DNA of 36,478 nt from positions 1 to 36,478 of the forward strand of contig JAHFMV010000012.1 in NCBI GenBank assembly GCA_023267655.1, given 5' to 3'. The position numbers were made by a program, and so were the translations under genes. A model generated the notes under the pieces. That model did no database searches. It was not told the DNA's origin and worked only from the letters and a program-made list of their open reading frames with translations. This DNA comes from Candidatus Kaiserbacteria bacterium. Lineage in GTDB: Bacteria; Patescibacteriota; Minisyncoccia; Phycocordibacterales; UBA2100. The stretch's first letter is position 1. Each line of letters begins with the position of its first letter. This document shows, piece by piece, positions 2,425 through 23,506 of the stretch.

Positions 2425-5400
2425 TTAAGGGGTCACCGCGGAGGCGGGGAGTTGCTCGCTGGGAGCGCTATCGTTCGCTGCTGTTGGGAGATTGAGTGCT
2501 GGTTCTGGTGTGGGTGTGATCACGTCTGTCGTCGTCGCCTGCGAGGTGTCATTCGCAGCCGCCGGAGCGGCGCTTGGCGTTGTCGAAGCGGTGTCCGTAG
2601 TTGGTTCGTCTACCGGTGGTTCAGACGGTGAAGGAGGAGACGATGATACCGGTGCGGCGGCGGCTGATGATTGTGCTGCAGCGTCCTTCCCGAACACCGC
2701 TTGGAACTGCTCCGGCGTCACGCATGTGTCGCCGACGCAGAGTTTGTCTGAAAACTTACCTTCGTGCGCGTGGATGATGCTCGCGTAGAAATCCTTGATG
2801 CCATTGGTGGCGTCGGCGAACCAGGCGATCAACCTGTCTTTGAGGGCGGCGAAGAAGCGGAAGGGGAACGAGCTCTCGTCGAGATCCGGTGTCGTGGTCG
2901 CGAGGTCTTCGAGTTTGAGGTTGAGGTCTTGGATCGCCTTTGCGAGGAGCGGCGTGACACGGCCGTAATCAATCATCCACGCGCTCGATGTGGCGGTGAG
3001 TGGTGACACGCCGTCATCGGTTGCTTGTACGGCGTCTGGGTAGTATTTATAGAGATCCTGTGCGATGAAACCTTGCACTCGTTTTCCGGGATTTGAGAGG
3101 AAGTTAAAATCATCGACAGGAATTTTTAAGAGGGTTTCTAGGCCGGCGGTCGTCGTTGCAATATTTCCCTTCAAGCGGCGATCTGATGTCGTCTGATATG
3201 CCATGACACTGCCGTTATAATAAATTGCACCAACATTCGAGCCCTGTTTTGTGAAATATTGATAATTGACTGAGTTGGAACCTGATGATTCATCGATGTG
3301 AATGGCTTGCGTGTTAGGGAAGCTAATCGAGAGCGTCTCACTATAGGGGAAACTGTTTGTTTTCATGCCGACGGAGCTTAGTATGGTGGTGCCGTTCGGA
3401 TCGACGCGGTAGGTGCCGTCATTGCCGTCGAGCTCGGCTCCATTGAACCCGTACGTGCGATAAAGGATGTTGGTGACAGAGGTACTATTTGGGTCAACGT
3501 AAAAGTTCGTATCGTTCGAGTCGTAAATAAATGGCGTCCGAAGATCCGTCGTGAAGGTCGGTTGGGATGAGAGCACGACACTTCCAGAGCCCGTGGAGCT
3601 TGTGACTCCCGTGCCGCCGTTTGCCACAGCCACAGTAGTACCTGTCCAAACACCGGAGATGATTGTGCCGACTGATGTAAGGGATGAGCCTGTCACGCCG
3701 GAGCCGAGTGTAGTACCGTTCAATACTGACGTGCCCGCGATTTTATACGAACCGCCCGAAGCGAGGTTCACGGTGTTTGCGGTTGTGTTGAGAACGCCCA
3801 CACCGAGACCACCTGTCATGTATTCGTTGCCAACCGTCGAGAGTGTTGCCGCGGGGCTCGTCGTCCCAATGCCGACGTTGCCGGAGGAGGTGAGTGTCAT
3901 TGCTTGCGTGCCAGCGCCGGAGGCGGCGGTGAAGAACCCAAGATTTGAGCTGCTGTCGGTCTTGAGTGAAAACGTCGAAGTGCCGATGTTCAGTGTTCCG
4001 GCCCACAGCGCGTTCCATCGTGCGGTGGTCGTGCCGAGGTCGAAGACAGAGAGGTTGTTCGTGTATGGGCCGTTCGGGAGGATGGCATTTGCGGCGACTG
4101 TGCCATTGACCGAGAGCAGCTGCCACGGTGTCGTCGAGCCGATGCCGACGTTGCCGCTCGAGTTGATGAGGAAGTAGGTGGCTGTGCTGGAGCCGATGGC
4201 GAAGGAGTTCTGTCCTGTGCCTGCGTTGATCGAGAGGTTTGCCCACGGAGTTGTCGTACCAATTCCTACTCTTCCTGCACCATCTACTACTAGATGTGTG
4301 GCGGTCGAGGAGCCGACGACGAATTCAGGGACGCCCGAGCCGAGCGCGTTTGGATTGACGGAGAGCAGCGCCCACGGACTTGTCGTGCCGATGCCGAATT
4401 TCCCGGCGCTGTACGCCGAGCCGTCGTTGTTCACCTGGAAGAGCGTGGTGGACGCGGAGTTCGCGACGAGGAATGATTGCGTTGAAGCCGATGTGTCAGA
4501 GCCCCAGAGCGTGAGTTTAGAGTATGGGGTGGAGGTGCCAATACCAAGCTGTCCCGATGTCGTGAAGGTAGATGTTGCCGTGCCACCGAAGTACGCCTGG
4601 TATGCGGAAAGAAGCGATGAGGATGCAGCGCCGCTGAATATCATGAGTGAGGTGGTCGCGCTTTGTCCGGCCGCAGGGTGCGTGAAAGGATCATACGATG
4701 CAAGGTAGTCGGAGCCTGCTGTTGCTGCAGTCACTTGCCCTCCCGTTGTTGTTTTGAGGATCGCGCCACTGGTGATACCGGATACCCAAAGATTCGTCGA
4801 GCTCGCCGTCGTTGCGGAGATCATTGTTGTCGATGCAAACGGAATCGAAAGTCCCGTACCGGCTGGCGCAGCGAAGTTAATCGTGAGTGCAGAACCAACC
4901 AGTGCACCGCTACCGGAGAGTGAGATCGCAGTTCCTGCAACCGGCGACGAGGTGGCGACGGATTGATATGCACCACTACTTCCGCCGTACAAGAGTTGTG
5001 ATACCGGAGCAGTGGTGGTCCCGGTTCCGCCGTTGGTAATCGTGAGTGCCGTCGAGAGCGTGAGGGCGCCGGTGGTGCTGAATGACGATGTTGCCGTCGC
5101 ACCGAAGTATGCGGTGTACGCAGAAAATTGTGTTGATGATGCGTTTCCGTTAAAAAGAAAGAGTGATGTGGTTGCGCTCTGCCCTGCAACTGGATGCGTG
5201 AAAGCGTCGTACGAAGAAAGTCCGCTTCCCGCACCAATGCCAAGTGTGGAAGTCGCCATAAGGGCGTAGCCGCCCGCACCATCGCCGATGAGCACTTGGC
5301 CATACACAGGCGTGCCCGATGTCGCGGTGCCGCCTTTTGCGACACCAAGAACACCGGAGAAATCCGTTGCGGTGACTGATCCGCCGGAGATCGTTGCGCC

Positions 5401-6525
5401 GGTAATCGTCCCACCGTTGATCGTGGGAGTGTGCAATTTAGTATCAGTCAATTCTTCGACGCGCGTGGCCATACCGAGTGTCTCATAGACATTGTTGATC
5501 GTCGTTGAATTCGCATTCGTAAGCGAGAGCATGCGATTCGTTAGGTCTGAATTCAACGATGCGAGACGTTGATCGAGATAGTCTTGCGTGATACCGCCGA
5601 TTGAAATTATTTTCTGCGCCTGCCCCGTTAGAGGCCTCTGGCTCTCTAATGGGGTTTGCACCTCGCGCTGGATGATCCTCTCGACAACAGGTTGGGTACT
5701 AGTGGTCGGGGACAGCGATGCGACCGAAGGCGTTGGCATTGTAGGTATTTTCGGATGCTGCGTTGGCGCAGGTTGCACGCTTAGGTACACCGCGCCGCGG
5801 TTCGTCGTCGGCGTTGGCGTGATCGACAAATTGCGGAAGACCGCGTTCAGAATAAATCCGTCGATCGACGCGTTCACCGAACGCGCAAGGTTTGACAATA
5901 AATCAGTGGTCGCAGCGAGAGAAACAGCGGCAGCTTGTCCCGGATTGTGCGATACAGTGCCAAACTTATTTCCGGTCGCGCGCAGGAGTACAGAAATATG
6001 TGACGGCGAAATATGTGAAAGAGACTCCATGGCAGCGTGCGACGACTGTTGCGCGTCGGCAAAAAATGATTGCGTGGCACGGGGATCGGCAAACGCAAAC
6101 GTGCCAACCACCAATGCAATCGCCATGATGAGTGCGAGGATGCGATGTGCAAGATCCATCGCGGGATGTATCGCGTAGAGTGGCGCAGAGTTGAATGAAT
6201 GAGCCGCTAAATTCTTTTTTGCCACCGCAGTAGAAACGATAGTTGTGATAGGGTGAGGCGCTTCGTCCGTGCGGCGTTTTTGATATTCCACTTTGCGCTG
6301 CCGCACAAGTTCGTTCTGACGCTGCGATTCCTTGTATTCCTGATCTGCCACAAACGTGCGCAACGAGTTCTCATCGACGAACCAATTCTTGCCGACACGC
6401 TTCGCCCGCAGTTTTCCCTCGCGGCACAGGCGGGCAACGTAGTCGCTCGTAAAGTGGTGCAAAAGCGCCGCGTCGCTTGCGGAAAGATGGCGCACGCCGT
6501 CGAAGAATAGTTCGTCGGTTGACAT
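2425..6525 (-). CDS. Giant surface protein: N-terminal HTH-like domain, TM helix, tail-fibre-like repeats, S74-like chaperone domain, C-terminal LCxxxxC motif and Pro/Ser/Thr tail
   Basis: 1366 aa; N-term LFFDGVRHLSASDAALLHHFTSDYVARLCREGKLRAKRVGKNWFVDENSLRTF; TM ILALIMAIALVVGTFAFA; GIGTTSPW repeats; FYVDPN motif; SDRRLKGNI; AAGGAG upstream of the ATG. Confidence 0.85.
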   Translation of the reverse strand: MSTDELFFDGVRHLSASDAALLHHFTSDYVARLCREGKLRAKRVGKNWFVDENSLRTFVADQEYKESQRQNELVRQRKVEYQKRRTDEAPHPITTIVSTAVAKKNLAAHSFNSAPLYAIHPAMDLAHRILALIMAIALVVGTFAFADPRATQSFFADAQQSSHAAMESLSHISPSHISVLLRATGNKFGTVSHNPGQAAAVSLAATTDLLSNLARSVNASIDGFILNAVFRNLSITPTPTTNRGAVYLSVQPAPTQHPKIPTMPTPSVASLSPTTSTQPVVERIIQREVQTPLESQRPLTGQAQKIISIGGITQDYLDQRLASLNSDLTNRMLSLTNANSTTINNVYETLGMATRVEELTDTKLHTPTINGGTITGATISGGSVTATDFSGVLGVAKGGTATSGTPVYGQVLIGDGAGGYALMATSTLGIGAGSGLSSYDAFTHPVAGQSATTSLFLFNGNASSTQFSAYTAYFGATATSSFSTTGALTLSTALTITNGGTGTTTAPVSQLLYGGSSGAYQSVATSSPVAGTAISLSGSGALVGSALTINFAAPAGTGLSIPFASTTMISATTASSTNLWVSGITSGAILKTTTGGQVTAATAGSDYLASYDPFTHPAAGQSATTSLMIFSGAASSSLLSAYQAYFGGTATSTFTTSGQLGIGTSTPYSKLTLWGSDTSASTQSFLVANSASTTLFQVNNDGSAYSAGKFGIGTTSPWALLSVNPNALGSGVPEFVVGSSTATHLVVDGAGRVGIGTTTPWANLSINAGTGQNSFAIGSSTATYFLINSSGNVGIGSTTPWQLLSVNGTVAANAILPNGPYTNNLSVFDLGTTTARWNALWAGTLNIGTSTFSLKTDSSSNLGFFTAASGAGTQAMTLTSSGNVGIGTTSPAATLSTVGNEYMTGGLGVGVLNTTANTVNLASGGSYKIAGTSVLNGTTLGSGVTGSSLTSVGTIISGVWTGTTVAVANGGTGVTSSTGSGSVVLSSQPTFTTDLRTPFIYDSNDTNFYVDPNSTSVTNILYRTYGFNGAELDGNDGTYRVDPNGTTILSSVGMKTNSFPYSETLSISFPNTQAIHIDESSGSNSVNYQYFTKQGSNVGAIYYNGSVMAYQTTSDRRLKGNIATTTAGLETLLKIPVDDFNFLSNPGKRVQGFIAQDLYKYYPDAVQATDDGVSPLTATSSAWMIDYGRVTPLLAKAIQDLNLKLEDLATTTPDLDESSFPFRFFAALKDRLIAWFADATNGIKDFYASIIHAHEGKFSDKLCVGDTCVTPEQFQAVFGKDAAAQSSAAAAPVSSSPPSPSEPPVDEPTTDTASTTPSAAPAAANDTSQATTTDVITPTPEPALNLPTAANDSAPSEQLPASAVTP
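2890..3190 (-). other. Peptidase_S74-like intramolecular chaperone domain within the 1366-aa protein
   Basis: TTSDRRLKGNIATTTAGLETLLKIPVDDFNFL..GFIAQDLYKYYPDAV..VTPLLAKAIQDLN; Ser codon at 3184-3186. Confidence 0.75.
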
Positions 6526-6870
6526 GAAAATGGAGAACTCCTTGTAAGTCGGAAAGACTCGACTTAGCTATATTTTATTAGCTAAATCGGGCATACGAGT
6601 TTGCGAAAAAGAGCAAATGTGGATAACTGAAACTCGTCCAGAGTCAGCGGGTAGTTTTTAAATAAAAGTTCAAATAGCTAGATGTACTTAAAAAAGACAC
6701 CAAAATGCGGTCGAAATCAACCTGTCACGTAGTCGAGCAAGAGTTTATTTTAGAACTGCACCACTGCTTCTATTCAAAATCTCGGCGATACGAGATTCGA
6801 ATCAGAGACCCGGCGCGAAGAGAATTGTAATCGCCCTCTCAATATATCTATCCGGATCCGATCCTCAATT

Positions 6871-7806
6871 TCAGGCACCATTTCTTTTGTACAGCAGTTC
6901 TTTAGATACAAAGCTCTGCAACCATTCTGGAACTTGAAAACCTGACAATACTGTGTTTTTACCAAAAACACGTCCTATAGAAGCAACAGATCCTGCTGGA
7001 GATGCAGTCGTGATTAGCACAAATCCCCCAATAAGCACTAAGGTTAGGCCTAATATCGCCCCAATTGGAGCAAACTTGCGCCACGAGCTTGTATCCCGCT
7101 TGAATGAGCCTTGTTGCACAGGAGTATACGTCGTTCGTCGTTCTACGATGCGAATAGGTATCTCATAGGCTTCCTCCTCGTTAGTATATTCAGTATCAAC
7201 GGCCGAGATATCGTGATTTTCAATGCTATCTATCTCGGGCCGAATCAATTCTTCGTTTACAGGAATCGGCGTAACGACTTCTTCTTTGTAGGTGAAGTGC
7301 AACTCGCTCTCCTCCCGAACAGGTTCGACTGGCAATATTTCTGGCTTCTGGAGTCCCACTGATTCTGTCTGGACTGCTGCAAGGAGAGCATCGTTGTACT
7401 TCTTATGCTCCACAATGCCTTCGCGATCCACGTACCAGCGTGCGCCTATTTGCCGCGAAAGGATCTTGCCCGAACGCGCGAGCTGTCCGACGTAGTCCTG
7501 ATGATAGCCGGTTATTTTTGCAGCTCGTTGCGCTGATACGTAGTCTTTACCATCGAACGATACAGTAGTCTCGAGATCAACGGTAGGCGGTGGCAGCGGA
7601 GGGGGTGTCGGTTTAAATTCATCAGCTTTCGCTTTGTAGCTGCGCAGAGATTCCTCGACGACGTACCAGAGTCCCGAGACGCGTTGTGCGATGATATTTC
7701 CCGCACGTGCGAGCTGTCCAATGTAGTCTTGGGCGTAGCCGGTAATTTCAGCCGCTTTCTTCGATGAAATGTATATCGTCCCGCCGAGATTAATCTCTTG
7801 AGCCAT
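6871..7806 (-). CDS. Membrane protein with two N-terminal HTH-like domains, a linker and one TM helix
   Basis: 311 aa; IYISSKKAAEITGYAQDYIGQLARAGNIIAQRVSGLWYVVEESLR and YVSAQRAAKITGYHQDYVGQLARSGKILSRQIGARWYVDREGI; TM FAPIGAILGLTLVLIGGFVLITTA. Confidence 0.8.
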   Translation of the reverse strand: MAQEINLGGTIYISSKKAAEITGYAQDYIGQLARAGNIIAQRVSGLWYVVEESLRSYKAKADEFKPTPPPLPPPTVDLETTVSFDGKDYVSAQRAAKITGYHQDYVGQLARSGKILSRQIGARWYVDREGIVEHKKYNDALLAAVQTESVGLQKPEILPVEPVREESELHFTYKEEVVTPIPVNEELIRPEIDSIENHDISAVDTEYTNEEEAYEIPIRIVERRTTYTPVQQGSFKRDTSSWRKFAPIGAILGLTLVLIGGFVLITTASPAGSVASIGRVFGKNTVLSGFQVPEWLQSFVSKELLYKRNGA

Positions 7807-7815
7807 ACAAAAGAC

Positions 7816-7899: not shown

Positions 7900-7913
7900 T
7901 AAACCCGTAAAAC

Positions 7914-8651
7914 CTATGTCCGCAATTTGAGGCCACGATACTGCATCCAGAACTGTAGCAACTGGTCAGGGCTTTTGGCACGAGAAAGAAATTTAGGAAA
8001 TGCCTCCGGTTCGGTTATTCGAGATGTTCCCGAGACATATTCCCCAATACTTGAATACCGATACGCGCACGCTTTTGCTGCGAGTGATCGAAGTTCAAGT
8101 GGATTCGCATTTTCCCATTCGTCATTAAACAGTTGCGCGGGAGCAAGATGCGTACGCGCAAATAAATATTTTAAGTGTTTTTCGGTTTGCGCCTTCTCAC
8201 TTATATACGGTCCGTGAAAAAGTCTTCCTGCGTGCGCATATTTTTTATTAAAGTACATGCTGTACGCAGTTTGCAATTTCTGCATGAACCGACCTATGCC
8301 GCCGCGAATCGCCGGTGTCGCGAGTATCAGAAATGATTTCGGTGTAAATGAATACGCACCAATCGCGACCAATCGCTCCGCCGGTCGGCTCTCAAAAATA
8401 TACTGCGCGCGCTCGCCGACGAACAGATTAGATGCGCGTGGACTCTCATGCGCGTTCAGTAGATGCAAGTACGCCTCAAAGCGATCATAGTCCTGCTGCG
8501 CGCTGAAAATCGTTCTCTTTTCGGCACCAAAATTAGACAAAAGGTAGTACTCAGCACCCTCCAAAGAGCCTGTTTTTAGGTCATGCAAAGGCACTTTTGC
8601 TCGACGCTCGCGATTTTGAGGCACAAAGCCGACTTTTGGGCGCTTTTTCAT
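7914..8651 (-). CDS. RAYT/Y1-transposase-like protein with degenerate HUH motif
   Basis: VAIGAYSFTPKSFLIL aligns with VAIGAYCLMPNHFHVL of the second RAYT; GRFMQKLQTAYSMYFNKKYAHAGRLFHGPY conserved. Confidence 0.75.
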   Translation of the reverse strand: MKKRPKVGFVPQNRERRAKVPLHDLKTGSLEGAEYYLLSNFGAEKRTIFSAQQDYDRFEAYLHLLNAHESPRASNLFVGERAQYIFESRPAERLVAIGAYSFTPKSFLILATPAIRGGIGRFMQKLQTAYSMYFNKKYAHAGRLFHGPYISEKAQTEKHLKYLFARTHLAPAQLFNDEWENANPLELRSLAAKACAYRYSSIGEYVSGTSRITEPEAFPKFLSRAKSPDQLLQFWMQYRGLKLRT

Positions 8652-8675
8652 CCTTTTAGTGTACTACGCCGTTAT

Positions 8676-8792: not shown

Positions 8793-9254
8793 AAATTTGC
8801 AATTTGCAAGCCTCAATTTGCAAACTAAACCCCAATATACAAAGAACAAATCATTGCTCGCTGGACTTTCGGGCTATCGTTCCAAATATTTGATTTATCT
8901 CGTCAGTTTCCTTCCAGAGTATCTTACACTCTGCCACCGAGCCACCGTCTGCTCGTGCAATCATTCGTAACCAGTGTTTAGTTTCCCTAGCTTCTTTACA
9001 GCAAATCTTGATTTTGTTTCGGAAATCTTTCTTTGAACTCGCTTCATTTGCCTCCATGTAATTTGCGCCAATACTTGTTGCATATCTGACGATTTGACTT
9101 ATCAGAGGTCGCGTTATTTCATTCTTCGGAATTAATTTTGACAGATCGATTACTCGCTCACCGAACTTTGAAACGCGCTCTTCCAAATCGTATTTCATTT
9201 TGAGATTGCGATTTGTAATTTTGTTTGCAAATTGCAAATTGGCGCTTGCAAATT
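8793..9254. repeat. Inverted TTTGCAAATT-type repeats bordering the four-helix-bundle gene
   Basis: CAATTTGCAAAC (8814-8825) and GTTTGCAAATTG (9223-9234) are perfect inverse complements within longer repeats; the right edge reaches the gatB stop. Confidence 0.6.
8851..9198 (-). CDS. Four-helix-bundle protein (23S rRNA intervening-sequence protein family-like)
   Basis: MKYDLEERVSKFGERVIDLSKLIPKNEITRPLISQIVRYATSIGANYMEANEASSKKDFRNKIKICCKEARETKHWLRMI; likely start at 9198 because residues upstream are encoded by flanking repeat. Confidence 0.75.
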   Translation of the reverse strand: MKYDLEERVSKFGERVIDLSKLIPKNEITRPLISQIVRYATSIGANYMEANEASSKKDFRNKIKICCKEARETKHWLRMIARADGGSVAECKILWKETDEINQIFGTIARKSSEQ

Positions 9255-10692
9255 ATCCCTGCATCTTTTTTACAATTTCCTCTTTCAACTGTCCCGGATT
9301 CACCGCCCCCTTCAATGCTTTCATCCCTTGTCCAATCAAAAACTGCAGCGCTGCTTCTTTCCCCTTTTTATAGTCCTCAACAACTGATTGATTTTTCGTA
9401 ATGATGTCTTGTATTACGGAATCCAAACCGCCGGCTGCTTCACTCATGATGAGCTCCCTTTCTGCAGCAATCACTTTCGGATCCTTTTTCTCTGCTATCG
9501 TGTGCATAATAAGGTCTTTTGCACCACGTGACGAGATCTTTCCGTCACGAATCATAGAGATAATCTTTGAGAAATTATCGGCGGAAATCGGAATTTCAGG
9601 CTTAATTGCCGTATCTCGACCATCAATATCTCGTACGATACTCACTAAATCGTTAGCGACGTAGTTTCCGGCAAGGCGAATGAACTCTGAATCTGCTTCG
9701 TGGCCCTGCAAAACCTCATCTAGAAAGTTCCCGAGAGCTGGGTATGCAGCAAACTGTTCCGCGTCAGCTGGTTTTATTCCCATGGCGGCGTAACGATTCC
9801 TACGTCCTGTCGGTAATTCCGGCAGGGTCTTGAGGAGTGCATTTTCCGCGAATTCCGGTACTTCAGAGAGCTTTAACGAGGGTAAATCAGGATCAGGGAA
9901 ATACCGATAATCTGCACTGCCCTCTTTAATACGCTGGCTAAAGGTTGCTTGCTTTGCATCATCCCAGCCTCGGGTCTCTTGCACGACTTTCTCGCCATTC
10001 TCTAAAAGCTGCGCCTGCCGCTTGATCTCGTACTCAATAGCCCTCTCCATCGCGCGAAATGAGTTAATGTTTTTGACTTCCACCTTAGTACCAAGTTCCT
10101 CCCCTTCTTTTGCCATGGAAATATTCGCCTCAAGACGCATATGTCCCTTTTCCATATCAGCATCGGATGAGCCGAGATACCGTAGTAAAAGCTGGAGTTC
10201 TCGGCCGAAGTCACCTGCCTGTTTTTCGCTATGAATGACCGGCTCGGTGACCAATTCCATCAGCGGCACACCGGCACGGTTATAGTCGATGAGGGTCTCG
10301 CCCGTGCGGTCGTCGTGCGACGAACTCGCCGTATCTTCTTCAAGATGAACGCGCGTAATGGCAACGCCATTCAGCGATCCCCCCGATACGAGTGGAAATT
10401 CATACTGCGAGAGCTGATATCCCTTCGGAAGATCAGGATAGAAGTAATTCTTACGATCGAATTCCGTATAATCGGCCAATTTGCCCTTGAGAGCAACGCC
10501 AACACGAAGTACGTGTTTTACCGCTTCCCTATTTACGACCGGTAGCGTGCCGGGATGAGCCATACAAACAGGACAAATGTTTACATTCGCACCTGCCTCA
10601 AACGGATCATTCTTAGACGCGCAAAACATCTTAGAGGCGGTCTTGAGTTCCGCGTGAACTTCGAGACCTATTGTAGGAATGTAGTCAGACAT
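9253..10692 (-). CDS. gatB: Aspartyl/glutamyl-tRNA amidotransferase subunit B
   Basis: IPTIGLEVHAELKTASKMFC..VCMAHPGTLPVVN..DRKNYFYPDLPKGYQLSQYEFPL; ~480 aa. Confidence 0.97.
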   Translation of the reverse strand: MSDYIPTIGLEVHAELKTASKMFCASKNDPFEAGANVNICPVCMAHPGTLPVVNREAVKHVLRVGVALKGKLADYTEFDRKNYFYPDLPKGYQLSQYEFPLVSGGSLNGVAITRVHLEEDTASSSHDDRTGETLIDYNRAGVPLMELVTEPVIHSEKQAGDFGRELQLLLRYLGSSDADMEKGHMRLEANISMAKEGEELGTKVEVKNINSFRAMERAIEYEIKRQAQLLENGEKVVQETRGWDDAKQATFSQRIKEGSADYRYFPDPDLPSLKLSEVPEFAENALLKTLPELPTGRRNRYAAMGIKPADAEQFAAYPALGNFLDEVLQGHEADSEFIRLAGNYVANDLVSIVRDIDGRDTAIKPEIPISADNFSKIISMIRDGKISSRGAKDLIMHTIAEKKDPKVIAAERELIMSEAAGGLDSVIQDIITKNQSVVEDYKKGKEAALQFLIGQGMKALKGAVNPGQLKEEIVKKMQG

Positions 10693-11015: not shown

Positions 11016-11025
11016 GCATGTGTCT

Positions 11026-11054
11026 GGAAAAACTATATAAACATTAGTTTTTCC
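11026..11054 (+). promoter_or_regulatory. 5'-UTR hairpin upstream of the giant gene
   Basis: GGAAAAACTA-TATAAACAT-TAGTTTTTCC, 10-bp perfect stem ending 14 nt before the ATG; no obvious Shine-Dalgarno. Confidence 0.5.
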
Positions 11055-11068
11055 ATCACCTCTCCATT

Positions 11069-14000: not shown

Positions 14001-17000
14001 CATCGCTTCTCGTGTTGAATGGCAACGCATCATCAACATTGTTCTCAATTCTCGACACGCTGTACGTTGGCCGCACGGCAACAACCACGATCCGTGGCGA
14101 TGGTCTCGCGAGTACGATTCCTTTTGCAAGTACGACAATGATCACGACAACATCGGCATCGACGACGAATTTCACGATTTCGAGCATTAACTCCGGTTCG
14201 CTTCTCAAAACAACAACGGCGGGAGCAGTGACGGCGGCAATTGCAGGGACTGACTACGCAACTGCGGCGATGACGTTTGGGAAAGCGTGGGAGGTCTCGG
14301 GTGGCTTCCTCGCACCAACGACGACGCTGTACGTGACAAATATTCAACAAGCATCATCGACATTGTTCTCTGCGCTCACCGCAAAGTTTGGTTCGACTGC
14401 TTCATCGTCATTTGCCGCAGACGGCTCGCTCACGCTCGCCGCCGCACTCACGATCGGTAACGGTGGCACGGGATCGACGACGGCACCTGTTGGGCAAATT
14501 CTGTACGGTGGTGCTTCTGCGTATCAGTCGGTCGCGACGTCTTCTGTTAGCGCGGGTACCGCACTTTCTTTCACCGGTACTCCAGGCGCGCTCGTTGGCG
14601 GTTCTGCGCTCACGATCAACTTTGCTGCGCCCGCAGGAACAGGGCTTTCGATTCCGTTTGCATCGACAACGATGGTCTCTGCGACAACCGCGAGCTCGAC
14701 GAATCTTTGGATTTCTGGAATCGCAAGCGGCTCATTACTTAAAACAACAACGGGAGGACAGGTGACTGCAGCAACTGCCGGTTCCGATTTTCTCTCGTCA
14801 TACGATCCATTCACGCATCCTGCTGCGGGACAAAGCGCGACAACCTCGCTCCTATTGTTGAATGGTGCCGCATCCTCAACACTCTTTTCAAACACCGGCA
14901 CGGCGTACTTTGGCGGTACGGCAACCTCATCGTTCTCTGCAACGGGTGCACTGACGCTCGCCACAGCACTGACGATTAGTAACGGTGGTACAGGAACTAC
15001 GACCGCACCTTCCTCACAACTTTTGTACGGCGGAGGTGGTGGTGTGTATCAATCCGTCGCGACGTCATCTCCTGTTGCAGGAACTGCAATCTCACTTTCT
15101 GGTTCTGGCGCGCTTGTGGGTTCTGCACTCACGATTAACTTTGCTGCACCAGCGGGCACTGGTCTTTCGATTCCGTTTGCTTCAACGACGATGATTTCAG
15201 CAACAACAGCTTCATCAACGAATCTCATCGTCTCGTCCGCAGGAGGAACAGGAACGCGCTGCCTCCAAGTGGGAGCAGACGGCACGGTGTCCGCAAATGC
15301 AAGTGCATGTGCAACAAGCGGCATCACTACGTATGACGCCTTTACCCATCCGGCCGCAGGACAAAGCGCAACGACATCGACAATGTTCTTCACGGGCGGC
15401 GCTTCAACGACGCTCCTCTCCATCGTCGATCGCCTCTACGTCGGCGGCACGGCGACAACAACAATCTTTGGCTCGGCGACATCGACCTTTGGCGCGGGAC
15501 TGCAAACAACCGCTCTCGACGTCACATCCAACAGCGCATCTTCGACATTCGCCAACGGCATCCAACTGTCCGCGGGTTGTTTCCGCGGTGCGAGTGGCAC
15601 CTGTATCACGAACACCGACACCTCCTCCTTCGTGACCGGCAACGGCAGCGGCGCCAACACGCGCGTCGCCTACTGGACGTCATCGTCCAACCTCACGTCG
15701 AGCGCAAATCTCACGTTCGACGGCACGACACTCACGGCGAATGACCTCCTCATCTCAAAAACCGGTACCGCAATTCTCTCTATTAATGACACCGGATCGA
15801 CCGGCACCGACTTCCGCATCGATGTCGCATCCGGCGTAACGACATTCCAAGCCGACGTCGGCGCGGCGCTCACCGGCGAATATTTTGCGTTCAACACCAA
15901 CAACGACGAAAAGATGCGATTAACCGAGGGCGGTAGACTCGGTATCGGCACAACATCACCATGGGCTGCGCTCTCCGTAAATCCGACGGCGCTCGGCAGC
16001 AGTGTCCCCGAATTCGTCGTCGGCTCGTCGACCATGACACATTTCCTCGTCGATGGCTCGGGCAATACGGCGATCGGCACCACCTCTCCCTTTGCACTCC
16101 TCTCACTCCAAGCCACCTCCACTCTCACGAAGCTTAATCTCTTTGCGATCGGCTCGACGACCGCCGCCGGTGTCACCTCAACACTCTTCAAGATCGACAA
16201 CACGGGTATTGCTTCCACCACCGGTCTCGTCGTTTCCAACACCGGAGGCACGGGCACCCGCTGCTTGCAAGTCGGAGCTGATGGCACGGTCTCTGCAAAT
16301 GCTTCTGCGTGTGGTACAGGTAGTGGTGGTGATTCGTTCACGCATCCTGCGGCAGGACAGTCGGCAACAACCTCAACGATGCTCTTCTCCAACGGAGCAA
16401 CGTCAACTTCAATCGGTGCATTCTCTGCTGCGTTTGGTGCCACCGCAACGACGACGTTCACCGCTGACGGCAAGGTTGGTATTGGTACCACGACACCGTT
16501 TGCTGCGCTGCAGGTTGGTACGACAACGGGAAAGAATCTCGTGCTCACCGATCTGAATGCAGGAAATGATCTAAAGCATTGGTTGTTGTCGGTCCTCGGT
16601 GGCAACTTCGTTCTCTCAACCACGACGGATGCATATGCAACATCCACTGCTCCTGCATTCCAGATCACGAAAGCTGGACTCGTGGGCATTGGTACTTCGA
16701 CGCCTGGTTCCATTCTTGCTGTCCAAGGCGCTGCTAATTTCAATTCCACCGCAACCTCGACTATCTACAATGGTCTCGCAACTCCGCTTCTCAACCTCAC
16801 TTCTTCAACAGCATCATCGACATTCGCGAATGGTGTGAACCTCACCGCAGGTTGCTTCTCACAAAACGGTGTGTGTGTCATTCCAGGTGGCGGTGGTGGC
16901 GTGCTCCTCGGCACCTTCTCTACTTCAACCGTCGGCACCAACGTGCAAGTGGTCTTCACCGGAGCTGCAGGATCACAGCCATCATTCTCTGCCGGAGTGC

Positions 17001-20000
17001 TGACGCTGCCGAGCAACACATCATATGTGGAGACGGAGGTGTGGGGGGGTGGTGGAGGTGGTAGCGGAGGCGGAAATGCTATGGGGAATGGTGGCGACGG
17101 CGGCAGCAGTTGCTTCGGCACTAACTCAACGGCCTGCACGAGCCCCTTGCTTTCAGCATCAAATGGTAGCGGAGGCGTGGGTGGCTCAAACGGTGGCGCG
17201 GGAGGTTCTGGCTCCGGCGGAGACATAAACATGACGGGTTCTGGCTCCGGTGGCATTACAGACACATCTGCATCGCTATCATATTTCTCTGGATTTCCCG
17301 GAGGTAGCGCCCCGCGCGGTGGAGGCGGCGGCGCTGCAAATCGCGCGGCTGCCGGAAGCAACGGTTCCGCCTTTGGCGGTGGAGGTGGAGGTGGAGCGTT
17401 AGAAGGAGGCAATTCTGTCGCATTTCAAGGTGGCTCAGGCGGTGGAGGCGGAGGATATTCTCAAAAGCGCATTAGCCCGCTATCGGGCACGTACTACTAC
17501 ACCGTTGGTGCGGGAGGCTCCGCGGGTACTGCGGGAACAAGCGGCTATGCCGGAGGCACAGGAGGCGCAGGGGGTTTTGTCATCCGCGTGTATACATCTA
17601 TATCAGCCAATGGCACATCAGGCGGGCAGCTCCTCGGCATCTACTCGACTTCGACTGTCGGCACGAACGTGACGGTGAATTTGAATGGTACGGCTGGTAG
17701 TGCGCCGAGTTTCTCTGGCGGTGTCCTTACACTTCCGTCAAACACGTCGCACATGGTGATTCAAACTTGGGGCGCGGGTGGTGGAGGTGGTGGTACAGTT
17801 ACAGCAACAGATGGTGGCACCGGTGGCTCGACTTGCTTTGGAACTAATTCCACCGCTTGTACAAGCCCGGCTCTAAGTGCGACGGGGGGATCAGGAGGTA
17901 AAGCCGGTGCCGGAAGCAATGATGGTGTTTCCGGAGGCGCTGGCGGTGCAGGTTCCAGCGGCGACGTAAATATCACAGGTGGTGGTGGGGACGGCGGCCA
18001 GCCAGGAGTCGGCTCATCTTTTAATGGTAGCGGCGGTGCCGGAGGAAATGCTCCGGCGGGTGGAGGAGGAGGCAAAGGAATTATCAGTGGTGGAATCGCA
18101 GGCAGCGCGTTTGGTGGTGGAGGTTCGGGTGGCGGAGGTGGTGGTGGTGGTGGAGTTGGTGGAGGTGGCGGTGGTGGTGGTGGTGGATACTCCGAGAAAT
18201 TGATTACGAGTCCTTCGGGAACCTACTACTACACAGTCGGTTCAAGCGGTACCGCTGGTACCGGTGGAAATTCTGGCGGCGCCGGTGGCGCCGGAGGCCT
18301 CGTCATCGAAGTATACGCAACCGGATTAACGTCAGGCACGAACGGCAGCGGTACTACCGGTCAAGTCGCATACTACGCATCATCAGGAACAAACCAGACA
18401 GCAACGTCATCGCTGTTCATTGATACCAGCAGCAACATCGGTATCGGTTCAACCACACCCTGGGGCACACTCTCCATCACGAATGTGGGTACGAACCCAT
18501 CGTTGGTGGTGGAAGATGCTGCATCACCGGATGCTTCCCTGTTCATCATTGATGCAACAGGCATGACGGGTATTGGTACGAGTACCCCATGGGGACAGTT
18601 GAGTGTGAATCCGAATGCACTGGGGAGTGGCGTACCAGAGTTTGTGATCGGATCGTCAACGCGTACACACTTCCTTGTAGATGGTAGTGGCAATGTTGGT
18701 ATTGGCACCACGTCACCATTCGCGCTTCTTTCACTCCAAGCAACCTCTACTCTCACGAAGCTCAATCTCTTCTCCATTGGTTCAACTACTGCAGCTGGTG
18801 TGACTCGCACGCTCTTCAACATCGACAACACGGGTGTTGCAAGCACAACGGGACTGGTGATCTCGAATACTGGTGGCACCGGCACCCGCTGTCTCCAAGT
18901 GGGAGCAGATGGCACGGTGTCTGCGAATGCTGCTGCGTGTGGTACCGGTAGCGGTGGTGATTCGTTCACGCATCCTGCGGCAGGGTTTAGTGCGACGACA
19001 TCAACGATGGTGTTCAACAGTTCTGTTGGTGTAGGTGGTACGACGACGCCATATGCACTGCTCTCGGTTGTTGCGACTTCGACAAACGGTACAGGTGCGC
19101 CGGTTACTCTCTTTGCAATCGCATCGACGACAGCTGGTACTGCAACGTCCACACTGCTCGTCGTGAAGAATGACGGGAATGTGGGGATTGGCACTTCGAC
19201 ACCGTATGCCCTCCTCTCCATACAAGCAACCAGCACCATCAACACCCGCACACTGCTCTCCGTTGCTTCTACGTCTGCTGCCGGAGTGGTGACGACACTC
19301 TTTAATATTGCGAATGATGGGGTGATTACTTCGAGCGCACTTGCTACTTCTACGTTTGCTGCGGGGATACAAGCAACCAACCTTAATCTCACCTCGACGA
19401 CTGCCACAAGTACTGCTGCAAATGGCATTAATCTTTCTGGAGGCTGCTTCTCTATTAATGGTACGTGTACCGTCGGGTCTGGTGGTGGGGTGCTGCTCGG
19501 TGTCTTCTCTACTTCAACCGTGGGCACTAACGTGCAAGTGGTGTTTACTGGTGCTGCGGGATCGCAACCGTCGTTCTCCGCGGGAGTGCTGACGCTTCCA
19601 TCAAACACGAGCTATATGGAGACGGAGGTGTGGGGTGGTGGTGGTGGTGGACGTGGTGGTGGCGATGGGGGAAACGGTGGCAGTGGCGGACAAAGTTGCT
19701 TCAGCAATAGTTCAACGAGTACTGCGTGCTCGGGAGTTAGTGGACCACTCTTGAGTGCAACAGGTGGTGGCGGGGGCGCACTTACGCCGCCCGCGGGCGG
19801 CACGGGATCAAGTGGAGATCTAAATCTCACCGGTGAAGCTCCCACGTCCGGTTCGGGCGCATTTACTCCCGCAGGAGGTGCCAACAATGGAGGCACCGCG
19901 GGCGGTAGCGCACCACGCGGAGGTGGCGGTGGTGCTGGTGGATATTACGCAGGCGCTGGAACTGCCGGCAGTCCTTTCGGTGGTGGTGGTGGCGGCGGCG

Positions 20001-23000
20001 GAATGAATGGCGACACGGTTTCCCACATCAGCGGTACAGGCGGTGCAGGCGGTGGATATTCTGGAAAACTTATTACAAGCCCGTCAGGAAGTTATTATTA
20101 TACGATTGGAAGTGGCGGTACTGCTGGAACTGCGGGCACAAACGGACTTGCCGGCGCAGCAGGAGGCGCCGGAGGATTCGTGGTGCGCGTGTACACCACC
20201 ATTTCTGCAAACGGCACATCAGGCGGACAGCTCCTCGGCATCTACTCGACTTCGACGCCGGGCACGAACGTGACGGTGAATTTGAATGGTGTTGCAGGAA
20301 GTGCTCCGAGTTTCTCTGGTGGTGTCCTGACGCTTCCGTCAAATGCTTCGACGATGATCGCGCATACGTGGGGGGCGGGGGGTGGTGGGGGTGGGGGTGG
20401 TTTTGGAAGTACTGGCGGAACAGGTGGAACTTCGAGTTTTGGAAATGGTACAGGCTCAGGTCTCGCGACGACATCTGCAACTGGCGGCGCTGGCGGCGCA
20501 TCCACTGGGGTTAGTGCTGGCGGAGCGGGGTCAGGAGGTGATGTTAATTTGACGGGTGGTGGTGCTTCTGCAGGTGGTTCATCTAATGCCTCTACAAATT
20601 ATTACGCGGGCACGACTGGTGGGGCTGCTCCCCGTGGAGGTGAAGGGGGCACCGGCGACACAGGTACGAATGGTAACGCGGGGAAATCGTTCGGTGGCGG
20701 TGGCGGTGGCGGTGGCGTGGGTGCATCTAATTCGACTGCGCCAGCTGGAACAGGAGGAGGTGGCGGTGGATATGCGCAAAAACTTATCACCAGTCCATCA
20801 GGAACATATTATTACAATGTCGGTGCGAGCGGCGCGGGGGGTGCTGCAGGTGCGACATGCGGCGGTGGAACGTGTTACGCCGGCGGCGCCGGCGGCGCCG
20901 GCGGCCTCGTCATCGAAGTGTATGCGACGGGACTCACTTCAGGATCGGCGGGTACTGGAACCGCGGGACAAGTTTCTTTCTACAGCACGGCGGGAAATCA
21001 ATTGACGGCAACATCAAGTATTTTTGTAAACACGACGAACAGCTTTGTGGGTATTGGTTCGACGTCGCCGACATCGATGCTCTCGGTAGGCGGCGATGTA
21101 AACATCGCCGCCGGTAGTTGCTACCGTGTGAACGGCGTGTGTATCGGATACACAGTCAAGCTCTCACGAATTTACGCGACGACGACAACCGGTACGTATG
21201 TCACACCCGCAAATCTCTCACATGCGGTAATCGAATGTGTTGGCGGTGGCGGTGGCGGTGGCGGTGCATCCGGATCGGTAGCTGCCGGAGCGGGTGGTGG
21301 TGCCGGAAGTTATTCTCGGACATACGCCACCTCCACGCGGATAGGTACTACGCAGACGGTCACTATTGGTGCGGGCGGAGCTGCGGGAACTTCGGGAGGT
21401 GGCAACGGCGGCGCTGGTGGCGATACCAGTTTTGGATCACTCTGCGTAGGGAAAGCCGGCAGTGGCGGTGCTGGAAGCGCTACCGCAAGTAACATTACGG
21501 CACCGGGCGCTGGTGGTGTCGCGGGTACTGGAGATGTTACCGCGACCGGCGCTCCCGGCGGTGCGGGACAATCCTTAAATAACACTACGTATCCTGTCCC
21601 GGGTCACGGGGGTTCATCGCCCTTCGGCGGCGGCGGCGTTCCTGATGGGACCGTAAATGCCACAGGCTATGGCGCGGGCGGTGCAGGCGCATGGACTTTG
21701 GGGTCGTCTGTCGCCGGCGGCACGGGATCGGCTGGTCTGGTTGTCATTACAGAATACTCCACCTCGACACCGAATGCCGCTGGCAATGACTACGCAGAAA
21801 TGTTCCCCGTGTCGAACCCGATGATCAATGCAGCGGATATCGTAGCAGTGGATGTGGGTGTTCCCGTATCAATGAAGCTCGCAAAGAAAGGAGATACTTT
21901 GGCTGGAGTGATTGCGACTGCGCCGGGACAAGTGCTCGGGGATATTAATGCGCTCGGGCAGCGGCCGGTGGCCCTTGCAGGACGCGTGCCGGTAAAGTTC
22001 TCTCTGGAAAATGGTCCGGTGAAATTGGGCGATCGCATTGCGCCGTCATCCATTCCCGGTGTTGGTATGAAAGCCGGCTACTTTGATGATTCGATCGGTA
22101 TCGTGATCGGTGATGTCGAAGACGGCAAAGTCATGGTGTTCCTTGATTTGCAACAGGGGCTCGATATCAATCAGATTGCGATGGGACTGGTGAATTTGCC
22201 GGCAAATACAGCCGGCGCCGGAGGCGCCGGCCAAGGATTCGACTTCATCGGCGGGCTCATGCAGAAGATCTCGCAGCGCATGGCACAAAGCGCGCAGACG
22301 CTCCAGACCGCAAGCGCACTCAACGCGCTGAAGAGTTTGAGCCTTGCAAACGAAATCACGTACTCTGCAAACGCCCCGGAAGCAGACGCCTCATCAAAAG
22401 GTTTAACCTTTTCCGAGCCTCAACAGAGCCAAGATACAGCTAAATTCCTCGATTACTTCAGCGCTGTCCCCTATCTTGTCGGCGCAGTGACGGAACTGGA
22501 CGCAAAAATGGAAAGCATCATCCCTGCGAACACGCTCTCCACTACAGATTCATCGACCACTGCCACATCAACCCCATCATTCGCCGATCGCTTCTGGAAT
22601 ACGCTGTACGATCGCGTCGCGGACAAATTCGCGATCGAACTCGTTGCGACTTCATCACCACGCGCGAACGTCGTCCGCTTTGCTGATCTCGACAGCGCAA
22701 CGTCGTCGCTCTACGCACAGATTCAAAGCGACATCGCGACAGCAACATCGTCCCTCGACCTTTTAGGATATGCAAAAACAGAAGACGTCAGTCTCTTGCG
22801 ACAAGCATTTGAAAATAATCTCGGCGCGACGGCAACCGCACAAGACCTTCTTGCCGCTACATCATCGGACGCGACGACAACGCCACTCGCCGCGAGCTCA
22901 AGCCCGTGGTTCGGATCGTTTGCAAACGCTTCGCAGCCACTCAAGGACGCACTTGCTTCCCTCTCTGATACCGTCATTCATGTCTTTGGCAACGCGATCT

Positions 23001-23506
23001 ACGCCGTGACCGGTATTTTCGATCGCGTCCTTGCAAAAGAAATCACCGCACAAAATATCTATGCAGATTCGGTACATTCAAAAGAACTCTGTCTCGAAGA
23101 CGTCTGCATCACGAAGAAAGAGTTGCAAGATCTGCTCGAGCGGCACCTCGGCGCCGTGTTGAGCGCGACGTCGACGCAAGCACTTTTCAACACGATCGCT
23201 GGAAATGCGACGTCGCACTTAGTCGATGACACCGCCGTAGCAACCACGAACGACACGGCAACATCTTCAACATTGGTAATTGGTGACCAACCTGCCACAA
23301 CAGTAGCGCACGAAGTCCTCTCTCCCGATGTGAAAACAAACCACGCAACGACGACGCCCATAACGATTCCAGCGCAAGAACCATCAACGTCATCGACACC
23401 AGAAACTCCGCCTTCACCAGTACCCGCCCCATCTGCGGACTCCCCAACGCCCGACGCACCTACTCCCGAATCATCTACGACCACTTCAACAACCCAATCG
23501 GAATAA
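11069..23506 (+). CDS. Giant (4145-aa) membrane-anchored surface protein: N-terminal HTH-like domain, TM helix, tail-fibre-like repeats, five Gly-rich domains, C-terminal LCxxxxC motif and Pro/Ser/Thr tail
   Basis: Single uninterrupted ORF; IFIDRIKYISARDAAKKVGLSHNYISKLCRRG..GVWHVNERALRDF; TM IIATVASSLAVLILLISSAVAF; GIGTTSPW repeats; DYAEMFPV..VALAGRVPVKFS region; ELCLEDVCITKKELQ. Confidence 0.9.
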   Translation: MSADEIFIDRIKYISARDAAKKVGLSHNYISKLCRRGLEGTKLVEGVWHVNERALRDFLEKKDRNRQRQLEQLANTRRDELVKSGNTPSPSKKEYDEIKKVVSETLAITEAHKMQRSPLPERRDKVDFGFRKIIATVASSLAVLILLISSAVAFQALSPSGRAERAAFQKYYGNKNEQLAAITSIPLIDKFASKVFFTLCPYIYGCPKVPTTVIVEKKTPATAPKPVQAQAPAQSSDLYASLALLIQNSIEKSFNRFASTYNFSSVASLPPGLVTESTLLTRLSALDQKLTGQINAVSLATSNNATIINNTYETLGAVARIDNLSDIHVTDSHWTGGFITDATITGGSVTATAFNGVLPIANGGTATSAAPTYGQLLIGDGVGGYSLVATSSLGIGAGTGTPGGADGTVQFNSGSTFAGNSSFLFNSTTNLLSFASASTSIASIFDRLYVGGTATTTILGSATSTFGAGVQTTALNITSTSATSTFANGIRLSGGCFQLADGTCAGTGSGSGLTAYDAFTHPIAGQSATTSLLLFSGNASSTQFSAYTAYFGATATSSFSSTGALTLASALTIGNGGTGSTTAPVGQLLYGGASAYQSVATSSPVAGTAISLSGSGALVGSALTINFAAPLGTGLAIPFASTTMITATTASSTNLFISGINSGSLLKTTTGGQVAAAVTGVDYLASYDPFTHPAAGQSATTSLVLFTGGASSTLFSNTGIAYFGGTATSSFSSAGVLTLTNLNGPLQANAGIVSATTSILAQYGGTGQTSYTAGDLLYASNGTTLAKLAIGGEGTFLKVTGGAPTWGAGAGGGGGTDVNWTFANGGIYPSTTTNQVIIGGTATSSWLNPLAKLGVTGGASFDAASTTNALFAASILTSGAKFGATATSSFASDGSLTLASALTIGNGGTGSTTAPIGQLLYGGASAYQSVSTTSVACAGTAACTGFTAIGSTPITITGSGITAYDAWTHPIAGQSATTSLLVLNGNASSTLFSILDTLYVGRTATTTIRGDGLASTIPFASTTMITTTSASTTNFTISSINSGSLLKTTTAGAVTAAIAGTDYATAAMTFGKAWEVSGGFLAPTTTLYVTNIQQASSTLFSALTAKFGSTASSSFAADGSLTLAAALTIGNGGTGSTTAPVGQILYGGASAYQSVATSSVSAGTALSFTGTPGALVGGSALTINFAAPAGTGLSIPFASTTMVSATTASSTNLWISGIASGSLLKTTTGGQVTAATAGSDFLSSYDPFTHPAAGQSATTSLLLLNGAASSTLFSNTGTAYFGGTATSSFSATGALTLATALTISNGGTGTTTAPSSQLLYGGGGGVYQSVATSSPVAGTAISLSGSGALVGSALTINFAAPAGTGLSIPFASTTMISATTASSTNLIVSSAGGTGTRCLQVGADGTVSANASACATSGITTYDAFTHPAAGQSATTSTMFFTGGASTTLLSIVDRLYVGGTATTTIFGSATSTFGAGLQTTALDVTSNSASSTFANGIQLSAGCFRGASGTCITNTDTSSFVTGNGSGANTRVAYWTSSSNLTSSANLTFDGTTLTANDLLISKTGTAILSINDTGSTGTDFRIDVASGVTTFQADVGAALTGEYFAFNTNNDEKMRLTEGGRLGIGTTSPWAALSVNPTALGSSVPEFVVGSSTMTHFLVDGSGNTAIGTTSPFALLSLQATSTLTKLNLFAIGSTTAAGVTSTLFKIDNTGIASTTGLVVSNTGGTGTRCLQVGADGTVSANASACGTGSGGDSFTHPAAGQSATTSTMLFSNGATSTSIGAFSAAFGATATTTFTADGKVGIGTTTPFAALQVGTTTGKNLVLTDLNAGNDLKHWLLSVLGGNFVLSTTTDAYATSTAPAFQITKAGLVGIGTSTPGSILAVQGAANFNSTATSTIYNGLATPLLNLTSSTASSTFANGVNLTAGCFSQNGVCVIPGGGGGVLLGTFSTSTVGTNVQVVFTGAAGSQPSFSAGVLTLPSNTSYVETEVWGGGGGGSGGGNAMGNGGDGGSSCFGTNSTACTSPLLSASNGSGGVGGSNGGAGGSGSGGDINMTGSGSGGITDTSASLSYFSGFPGGSAPRGGGGGAANRAAAGSNGSAFGGGGGGGALEGGNSVAFQGGSGGGGGGYSQKRISPLSGTYYYTVGAGGSAGTAGTSGYAGGTGGAGGFVIRVYTSISANGTSGGQLLGIYSTSTVGTNVTVNLNGTAGSAPSFSGGVLTLPSNTSHMVIQTWGAGGGGGGTVTATDGGTGGSTCFGTNSTACTSPALSATGGSGGKAGAGSNDGVSGGAGGAGSSGDVNITGGGGDGGQPGVGSSFNGSGGAGGNAPAGGGGGKGIISGGIAGSAFGGGGSGGGGGGGGGVGGGGGGGGGGYSEKLITSPSGTYYYTVGSSGTAGTGGNSGGAGGAGGLVIEVYATGLTSGTNGSGTTGQVAYYASSGTNQTATSSLFIDTSSNIGIGSTTPWGTLSITNVGTNPSLVVEDAASPDASLFIIDATGMTGIGTSTPWGQLSVNPNALGSGVPEFVIGSSTRTHFLVDGSGNVGIGTTSPFALLSLQATSTLTKLNLFSIGSTTAAGVTRTLFNIDNTGVASTTGLVISNTGGTGTRCLQVGADGTVSANAAACGTGSGGDSFTHPAAGFSATTSTMVFNSSVGVGGTTTPYALLSVVATSTNGTGAPVTLFAIASTTAGTATSTLLVVKNDGNVGIGTSTPYALLSIQATSTINTRTLLSVASTSAAGVVTTLFNIANDGVITSSALATSTFAAGIQATNLNLTSTTATSTAANGINLSGGCFSINGTCTVGSGGGVLLGVFSTSTVGTNVQVVFTGAAGSQPSFSAGVLTLPSNTSYMETEVWGGGGGGRGGGDGGNGGSGGQSCFSNSSTSTACSGVSGPLLSATGGGGGALTPPAGGTGSSGDLNLTGEAPTSGSGAFTPAGGANNGGTAGGSAPRGGGGGAGGYYAGAGTAGSPFGGGGGGGGMNGDTVSHISGTGGAGGGYSGKLITSPSGSYYYTIGSGGTAGTAGTNGLAGAAGGAGGFVVRVYTTISANGTSGGQLLGIYSTSTPGTNVTVNLNGVAGSAPSFSGGVLTLPSNASTMIAHTWGAGGGGGGGGFGSTGGTGGTSSFGNGTGSGLATTSATGGAGGASTGVSAGGAGSGGDVNLTGGGASAGGSSNASTNYYAGTTGGAAPRGGEGGTGDTGTNGNAGKSFGGGGGGGGVGASNSTAPAGTGGGGGGYAQKLITSPSGTYYYNVGASGAGGAAGATCGGGTCYAGGAGGAGGLVIEVYATGLTSGSAGTGTAGQVSFYSTAGNQLTATSSIFVNTTNSFVGIGSTSPTSMLSVGGDVNIAAGSCYRVNGVCIGYTVKLSRIYATTTTGTYVTPANLSHAVIECVGGGGGGGGASGSVAAGAGGGAGSYSRTYATSTRIGTTQTVTIGAGGAAGTSGGGNGGAGGDTSFGSLCVGKAGSGGAGSATASNITAPGAGGVAGTGDVTATGAPGGAGQSLNNTTYPVPGHGGSSPFGGGGVPDGTVNATGYGAGGAGAWTLGSSVAGGTGSAGLVVITEYSTSTPNAAGNDYAEMFPVSNPMINAADIVAVDVGVPVSMKLAKKGDTLAGVIATAPGQVLGDINALGQRPVALAGRVPVKFSLENGPVKLGDRIAPSSIPGVGMKAGYFDDSIGIVIGDVEDGKVMVFLDLQQGLDINQIAMGLVNLPANTAGAGGAGQGFDFIGGLMQKISQRMAQSAQTLQTASALNALKSLSLANEITYSANAPEADASSKGLTFSEPQQSQDTAKFLDYFSAVPYLVGAVTELDAKMESIIPANTLSTTDSSTTATSTPSFADRFWNTLYDRVADKFAIELVATSSPRANVVRFADLDSATSSLYAQIQSDIATATSSLDLLGYAKTEDVSLLRQAFENNLGATATAQDLLAATSSDATTTPLAASSSPWFGSFANASQPLKDALASLSDTVIHVFGNAIYAVTGIFDRVLAKEITAQNIYADSVHSKELCLEDVCITKKELQDLLERHLGAVLSATSTQALFNTIAGNATSHLVDDTAVATTNDTATSSTLVIGDQPATTVAHEVLSPDVKTNHATTTPITIPAQEPSTSSTPETPPSPVPAPSADSPTPDAPTPESSTTTSTTQSE
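12600..15330 (+). repeat. Degenerate tandem ~170-aa modules (YDxFTHPxAGQSATTS..GNGGTGSTTAP..LLYGG..SALTINFAAP..IPFASTTM..)
   Basis: Multiple protein-level copies; exact 42-nt repeat ACGCATCCTATTGCAGGTCAGTCGGCAACAACATCGCTTCTC at 12626-12667 and 13970-14011; related copy inverted at about 4640-5250. Confidence 0.85.
15955..18360 (+). repeat. Segmental duplication unit A (LSVNP..KLNLF..GTRCLQVGADGTVS..two Gly-rich domains)
   Basis: Same module order as 18580-20945 at a near-constant offset (2589-2628 bp at five anchors). Confidence 0.8.
16900..18350 (+). other. Gly-rich (phage tail-fibre-like) domains 1 and 2
   Basis: VWGGGGGGSGGG..GGGGGYSQKRISPLSGTYYYTVGAGG..GGAGGFVIRVY, then a second copy. 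Confidence 0.75.
18580..20945 (+). repeat. Segmental duplication unit B
   Basis: See unit A. Confidence 0.8.
19485..20950 (+). other. Gly-rich domains 3 and 4
   Basis: Same signature, YSGKLITSPSGSYYYTIGSGG and YAQKLITSPSGTYYYNVGASG. Confidence 0.75.
21150..21760 (+). other. Gly-rich domain 5, most divergent
   Basis: LSHAVIECVGGGGGGGG..TVTIGAGGAAGTSGGGNGG..GSAGLVVITEY. Confidence 0.65.
22396..22412. repeat. Palindrome AAAAGGTTTAACCTTTT inside the giant CDS
   Basis: Core identical to the copies at 23550, 24294 and 28184; translated as KGLTF. Confidence 0.85.

Follow-up and report, generated by a model that had tools for sequence, protein, structure and literature searches.

A gatB-linked pair of predicted membrane-tethered winged-helix proteins and a candidate promoter dyad in Candidatus Kaiserbacteria and relatives

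Membrane-tethered regulators are a known class, and to our knowledge its described members use OmpR-type or similar domains. ToxR, CadC, and TcpP each have an N-terminal cytoplasmic winged helix-turn-helix (wHTH) domain, a single transmembrane (TM) helix, and a compact C-terminal sensor domain outside. Other proteins share single features with the locus described here. TraN of pIP501 is a cytosolic protein of a conjugation system, without a TM helix, that binds double-stranded DNA with two tandem wHTHs per chain, and RacA of Bacillus subtilis, which also has no TM helix, uses its MerR-like wHTH to bring DNA to the envelope through many chromosomal binding sites. BldC is a soluble protein of 68 aa that binds direct repeats. 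MYRF is a membrane-bound factor that combines a DNA-binding domain, an S74-type trimerizing autocleavage domain, and a TM helix in one chain, with the S74-like domain on the DNA-binding side, where cleavage frees the factor. The Patescibacteria are believed to live on other cells, and little is known about how they detect contact and regulate their surface fibers.

We examined a window of 36,478 nucleotides, which is contig 7 in its entirety (JAHFMV010000012.1) of a Candidatus Kaiserbacteria assembly (GCA_023267655.1; 1.09 Mb, 98.9% complete). Computation identified a family of wHTH proteins, their fold, a recurrent gene order, and a unique dyad specific to one of the genes and co-occurring with the proteins. 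Our main reading, to which we assign a probability of roughly 0.6, is that genes A and B form a conserved two-gene membrane-tethered module in which the wHTHs of A, B, or both bind a dyad at the B promoter and set B transcription from the membrane. The predicted topology is that of ToxR, CadC, and TcpP, but Pfam scans of the window proteins found no OmpR-type Trans_reg_C domain, and the fold is of the HTH_17/MerR type instead. Outside the membrane there is a giant fiber (B) or almost nothing (A), and, unlike the three known regulators, A and B appear to regulate their own or a neighbor's gene. BldC is similar in fold (TMt, 0.75; 1.8 A), in the arginine at a base-contact position in B, and in its AT-rich plus CG half-site, but the A and B domains are anchored in the membrane, and the strong site found at B promoters is a dyad. 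TraN is the best structural match of A. RacA shares the MerR-like wHTH, whereas A and B carry a TM helix and strong dyads occur only at B promoters. The B protein g1366 resembles MYRF in joining a DNA-binding-type domain, an S74-type domain, and a TM helix, but its S74 domain lies on the opposite side of the membrane.

What appears to be new, judged from sequence and models, is the fusion of MerR/excisionase-type domains to giant fibers, the tandem-wHTH partner, and the private promoter dyad; a search of the open-access literature found no description of this combination. Conserved beside gatB in a large lineage, such a domain on ectodomains of thousands of residues would extend the class of tethered regulators. 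The locus is a concrete and testable candidate that combines two tethered regulators and one giant fiber with a short DNA site found nowhere else in the genome. The coordinates of its features are listed in Table 1.

Table 1. Positions of genes, domains, and DNA elements in the window
Feature	Position	Strand	Details
Gene B (g1366)	2425..6525	-	1,366 aa; wHTH, basic linker, TM, coiled coil, tail-fiber-like repeats, S74 chaperone domain, C-terminal tail
g1366 Peptidase_S74 intramolecular chaperone	3028..3186	-	SDRRLK motif; Pfam 37.8 bits (cutoff, 22)
g1366 TM helix	6085..6141	-	Residues 129-147
g1366 wHTH	6334..6513	-	DYVARLCR
Type-1 dyad, g1366 promoter	6558..6590	-	CGATTTAGCTA-ATAAAATA-TAGCTAAGTCG; sole motif match in this genome
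Palindrome ATCTCGTATCGCCGAGAT	6779..6796	-	A-B gap; one mismatch to ATCTCGG-N4-CCGAGAT
Gene A (p311)	6871..7806	-	311 aa; two tandem wHTHs, disordered linker, single TM helix, short extracellular tail
p311 TM helix	7009..7065	-	Residues 248-266; hydropathy and AlphaFold
A wHTH2	7390..7563	-	Recognition helix QDYVGQLAR
A wHTH1	7621..7797	-	Recognition helix QDYIGQLAR
gatB	9253..10692	-	Conserved upstream neighbor of gene A in relatives; two small genes inserted between them here
Type-2 dyad	11025..11055	+	TGGAAAAACTA-TATAAACAT-TAGTTTTTCCA; 13 nt before g4145 start codon
Paralogous B (g4145)	11069..23506	+	4,145 aa; wHTH, linker helices, TM, ectodomain of >3,900 residues
g4145 wHTH	11081..11260	+	NYISKLCR
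g4145 TM helix	11465..11521	+	Residues 133-151; hydropathy and AlphaFold
g4145 glycine-rich region	20987..21796	+	Phage tail-fiber family phrog_863 (E 6.5e-32); DYAEMF motif at end

Protein family, fold, and predicted topology

A sequence-only reading of the window had described the three ORFs of g1366, p311, and g4145, and our ORF check agreed. Searching the whole genome with PF12728 (HTH_17) at E<=1e-3 returned these three proteins and a fourth paralog, g1959 (1,959 aa), encoded by a giant ORF on contig 3, outside the window. Every HTH_17-type protein found in the genome is predicted to be membrane anchored. The HTH_17 score of p311 (32.3 bits) exceeded the curated cutoff of 27, those of g1366 (17.6 bits) and g4145 (13.7 bits) fell under it, and the relatives L112 and L114 passed it; all of these domains align. 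Because single-protein Pfam scores were mostly below the cutoff, the family assignment rests on the mutual alignment of five domains from the window proteins and g1959, which has nine invariant columns, and on a family profile, which found several hundred more domains, many with an identical layout.

For p311 and the N terminus of g4145, AlphaFold and Foldseek supported the wHTH fold proposed from the letters. The AlphaFold (AF2) model of p311 contains two wHTH domains (pLDDT, about 97), and that of the g4145 N terminus contains one (pLDDT, about 97), followed by long helices and a TM helix at residues 129-157. The order of secondary structures, alpha1-alpha2-beta-beta-alpha3, is that of BldC. 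Foldseek neighbors included TraN (tandem wHTH), Xis, BldC-DNA, RacA-DNA, and RdfS; the closest matches had probabilities of 0.96-1.00 and domain rmsd values of about 2 A, and none reached E<=0.001, the domains being small. A sequence search of the PDB gave no credible match. In the BldC-DNA complex, the key base contact is that of Arg30; Lys26 also contacts a base, and Thr27, Thr29, and Lys33 contact phosphates (PMC5859096). A and B have two distinct, nearly fixed predicted recognition helices: in our own alignment of these helices to BldC, the Arg30 position is R or K in 48 of 50 B domains and Q in 65 of 68 A domains, and the Lys33 position is R or K in 117 of the 118 A and B domains.

Hydropathy showed one strong hydrophobic segment per protein, C-terminal to the HTH region (residues 118-136 in g1959). 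The claim that each HTH domain is followed by a linker and one TM helix therefore held for the presence of a TM helix in all three window proteins and failed for p311, in which two HTHs share one. The predicted cytoplasmic side carried 4.0 K/R per 25 residues versus 2.0 on the other side (62 cases versus 15), which predicts an N-in topology with the HTH on the cytoplasmic side. Thus, neither of the two grounds for doubt named by the sequence-only reading was borne out, as the positive-inside rule places the N terminus inside and the DNA-contact positions are retained in the alignment. Signal-peptidase cleavage of g1366 at AFA/D is conceivable, and a cleavable signal sequence in some B N termini could free the ectodomain from the HTH.

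Across the lineage, A proteins are about 310–370 aa long and have one or two wHTHs and a TM helix near the C terminus. In the models, no classical MerR C-terminal dimerization coiled coil or effector domain follows the HTHs of A, where there is a disordered linker, and B has a long helix after its HTH. An alignment of A proteins showed a conserved Y-x-x-D-x-x-x-L-x-P in the linker and a conserved E-[LI]-x-Y-x-R-like motif at the end of the extracellular tail, both of which are possible partner-binding motifs.

B proteins consist of a wHTH, a TM helix, and an ectodomain that reaches thousands of residues. Besides g1366, Peptidase_S74 was present in the B protein of L114; g1959 has SDRRIK and is S74-like by motif alone, and the domain was not found in g4145 or in the B proteins of most relatives. 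The three giants of this genome (g1366, g4145, and g1959, the last at L005 2492-8371) have a C-terminal L-C-x4-C-[IV] motif in common, which was absent from the other complete B proteins checked. Near-identical repeat blocks are shared by g1366 and g4145 (79% over 244 aa), which suggests recombination between these paralogs. Elsewhere in the window, positions 24495-27609 encode two adjacent secreted Ser/Thr-rich paralogs of ~506 aa, which are nearly identical to each other at both ends and divergent in the middle.

The gatB–A–B locus in relatives

We searched for the family with the five-domain profile at match thresholds of E<=1e-3 or 1e-4. It was found in 61 of 70 genomes of the taxonomic family, 95 of 197 sampled genomes of the order, 146 of 286 genomes of the class, and 50 of 287 genomes of the phylum, where matches include short soluble-looking proteins, so that this is not a count of architectures. 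Many matches open ORFs of 1,000 to 6,621 aa. A scan of named genomes found 357 relatives, and those kept are labeled Ca. Kaiserbacteria, Taylorbacteria, Zambryskibacteria, Vogelbacteria, Campbellbacteria, Nomurabacteria, and other Parcubacteria, which are tiny and probably host-dependent Patescibacteria. The fusion of an HTH to a giant ectodomain, which had been considered unusual, is the rule in this lineage according to the family, order, and class searches and 79 named loci.

In 40 loci fetched around matches, a short HTH-TM gene A was usually followed, after 20 to about 900 bp, by a same-strand HTH-TM gene B of 236 to more than 4,000 aa, and the protein cluster directly upstream of A was gatB in 34. 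Direct comparison with the window GatB placed gatB upstream of A in 63 of the 79 named loci, and B was detected downstream of A in 55 of the 79, with contig ends cutting some of the rest. Since the loci were chosen for their HTH matches, these fractions describe carriers and not all genomes; moreover, gene calls are simple ORFs, and contig ends cut many B genes. The gatB–A–B order is a conserved locus in Ca. Kaiserbacteria and relatives. This order had been missed by the sequence-only reading, as had the g1959 paralog and the two-HTH A protein as a separate partner component. Both g4145 and g1959 are extra B paralogs with no preceding A gene.

In most relatives, A stands directly after gatB with no insert. 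At 7914-9237 of the window, a four-helix protein of the 23S-rRNA-IVP type and a probable Y1/REP-type transposase are encoded between the two.

Promoter dyads and models of B control

B leaders share a type-1 dyad, CCGAnnTAnCTA–N8/9–TAGnTAnnTCGG, with a -10-like GTAAAATA in its middle. About 30 non-A leaders outscored every shuffled control, and about a third of the B leaders fell under the motif threshold. A leaders have essentially no type-1 dyad. Only one of them scored clearly high (22.8), and it most likely belongs to a locus in which three HTH genes follow one another and the assignment as A is doubtful. When the type-1 sequence model was run over 20 whole genomes, the B leader was the best match in most. 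The other matches in these genomes were few, namely, the palindrome's own reverse strand and two sites upstream of HTH genes (a 448-aa gene in G026, and G027:C7:36321, which lies some 35 bp ahead of an HTH giant). A further 20 genomes, most of them more distant, gave weaker scores; B leaders were again best wherever a good match existed, and seven genomes had no good match. Most genomes of the taxonomic family that carry the HTH family had a match at E 1e-8 to 1e-4, and 20 genomes without the HTH family had none below E=0.05. Of the 50 best matches in named loci, 33 lay outside the training set, and 32 of these 33 fell either between A and B or upstream of a gene for an HTH protein; held-out sites were defined by sequence, and some named loci are genomes used earlier, so that independence is partial. 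The type-1 sites of named loci commonly end 11-26 nt before the start codon.

A type-2 dyad, GGAAAnnCTA-N9-TAGnnTTTCC, is shared by g4145, g1959, and a giant in G036. It had three exact matches in 52 genomes, each just upstream of an HTH giant; the pattern was derived from these same three genes, so that the scan speaks to its rarity elsewhere. We regard the dyads as candidate sites for DNA binding at B promoters.

In the mechanism that we propose, the product of gene A would be a type II membrane protein that carries one or two cytoplasmic MerR/BldC-like wHTHs and a short outside tail, and that of gene B, directly downstream with its own promoter, would be a giant surface fiber with a related wHTH at the cytoplasmic end. 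The wHTHs would occupy the dyad overlapping or abutting the B core promoter, and B transcription would be governed from the membrane. A dyad that covers or adjoins the core promoter points to steric repression and hence, in the simplest form, negative feedback, which would match B output to the A and B already in the membrane; activation is possible instead. Binding of the dyad by A or B, the sign of the regulation, and the signal from the membrane are what we infer.

Which protein might bind was addressed in 46 loci with a tandem A by partial Mantel tests, which are prone to false positives. With gatB distance removed, operator divergence correlated with that of A's second HTH (partial r, 0.37; p<0.001), compared with r values of 0.10 for A's first HTH and 0.08 for B's HTH, the last being no signal for B's own HTH as the binder. 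The giants downstream of type-2 dyads have diverged in the recognition helices of their own HTHs, which would favor B acting on itself there. In the gatB locus, A is the likelier binder at B, probably through its second wHTH. On a further reading, which we consider unlikely, the giant adhesins are themselves membrane-tethered transcription factors, and host contact with the fiber changes the state of the wHTH and alters its own promoter through the dyad and A.

Membrane-anchored wHTHs might instead anchor the B gene or the chromosome to the envelope, aiding transertion of a 4,000-residue protein or segregation as with RacA. RacA-DNA is among the structural neighbors, no HTH_17-type protein without a membrane anchor was found in the genome, and a site at a gene's own promoter would achieve tethering automatically; transertion with a membrane-localized locus is documented for Vibrio T3SS2 (PMC9977878). 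We nevertheless rate an architectural role as unlikely, because strong dyads occur at B promoters alone and are not scattered over the chromosome, a pattern more suggestive of gene control than of global anchoring. Tethering of the gene would also follow from binding and is compatible with regulation. RodZ, an HTH-TM protein whose HTH binds MreB and not DNA, is a precedent for an HTH that serves as a cytoplasmic protein-protein anchor of a surface fiber. Such a role is quite unlikely here, given contact positions that are nearly invariant and basic in B, the co-occurrence of a conserved B-specific dyad with the HTH proteins, and Pfam scans of the window proteins with no RodZ-type HTH or periplasmic DUF4115.

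The dyad could also be an RNA hairpin, or just the strong core promoter of giant genes, unconnected to the HTH proteins; the start codon follows shortly after it, and the type-2 arms are near-perfect complements. Pair counts along the dyad arms do not support a hairpin, since several internal positions mostly do not pair and the remaining pairs are preserved through sequence conservation and not covariation. With about one dyad per genome, at genes for HTH proteins, and none in the 20 genomes searched that lack these proteins, we find this explanation very unlikely. That the genes are a phage or prophage tail-fiber gene and its regulator, and not a cell-surface system, is brought to mind by the phage tail-fiber families that both g1366 and g4145 match. 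It is extremely improbable, as a search of a viral contig collection found no relative of A, the position after gatB is fixed across many families, and the annotated parts of the window contain no phage structural gene.

Other palindromes and DNA elements

A search against Rfam gave no match. The sequence-only reading had pointed to a palindrome at 10951-10966 as a possible binding site. The sequence exists, but as an operator it was rejected, being seen in none of the relatives' leaders that were read, and the conserved dyads are those at 6558-6590 and 11025-11055. Its opposite strand also scored as a terminator-like stem.

The ATCTCGG-N4-CCGAGAT palindrome occurs at 50-odd sites in 52 genomes of the genus, compared with a handful for the reversed control; further examples are G000:C3:158226 and 158261. 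CCGAGAT palindromes are enriched in A-B gaps but also occur near other surface-protein genes, clpC/degP-like genes, and dnaN, and some fall inside HTH coding sequence. We therefore did not retain them as the HTH site; they could be RNA hairpins or protein sites. Finally, TTATCCACA, which is identical to a DnaA box, is present in A and B leaders (e.g., at about 6618-6626 of the window, minus strand). It was rejected as a module-specific site because it is also enriched in forward orientation upstream of unrelated genes. Upstream of genes in these genomes, it occurs almost exclusively in that orientation, and it looks like a general promoter-associated element.
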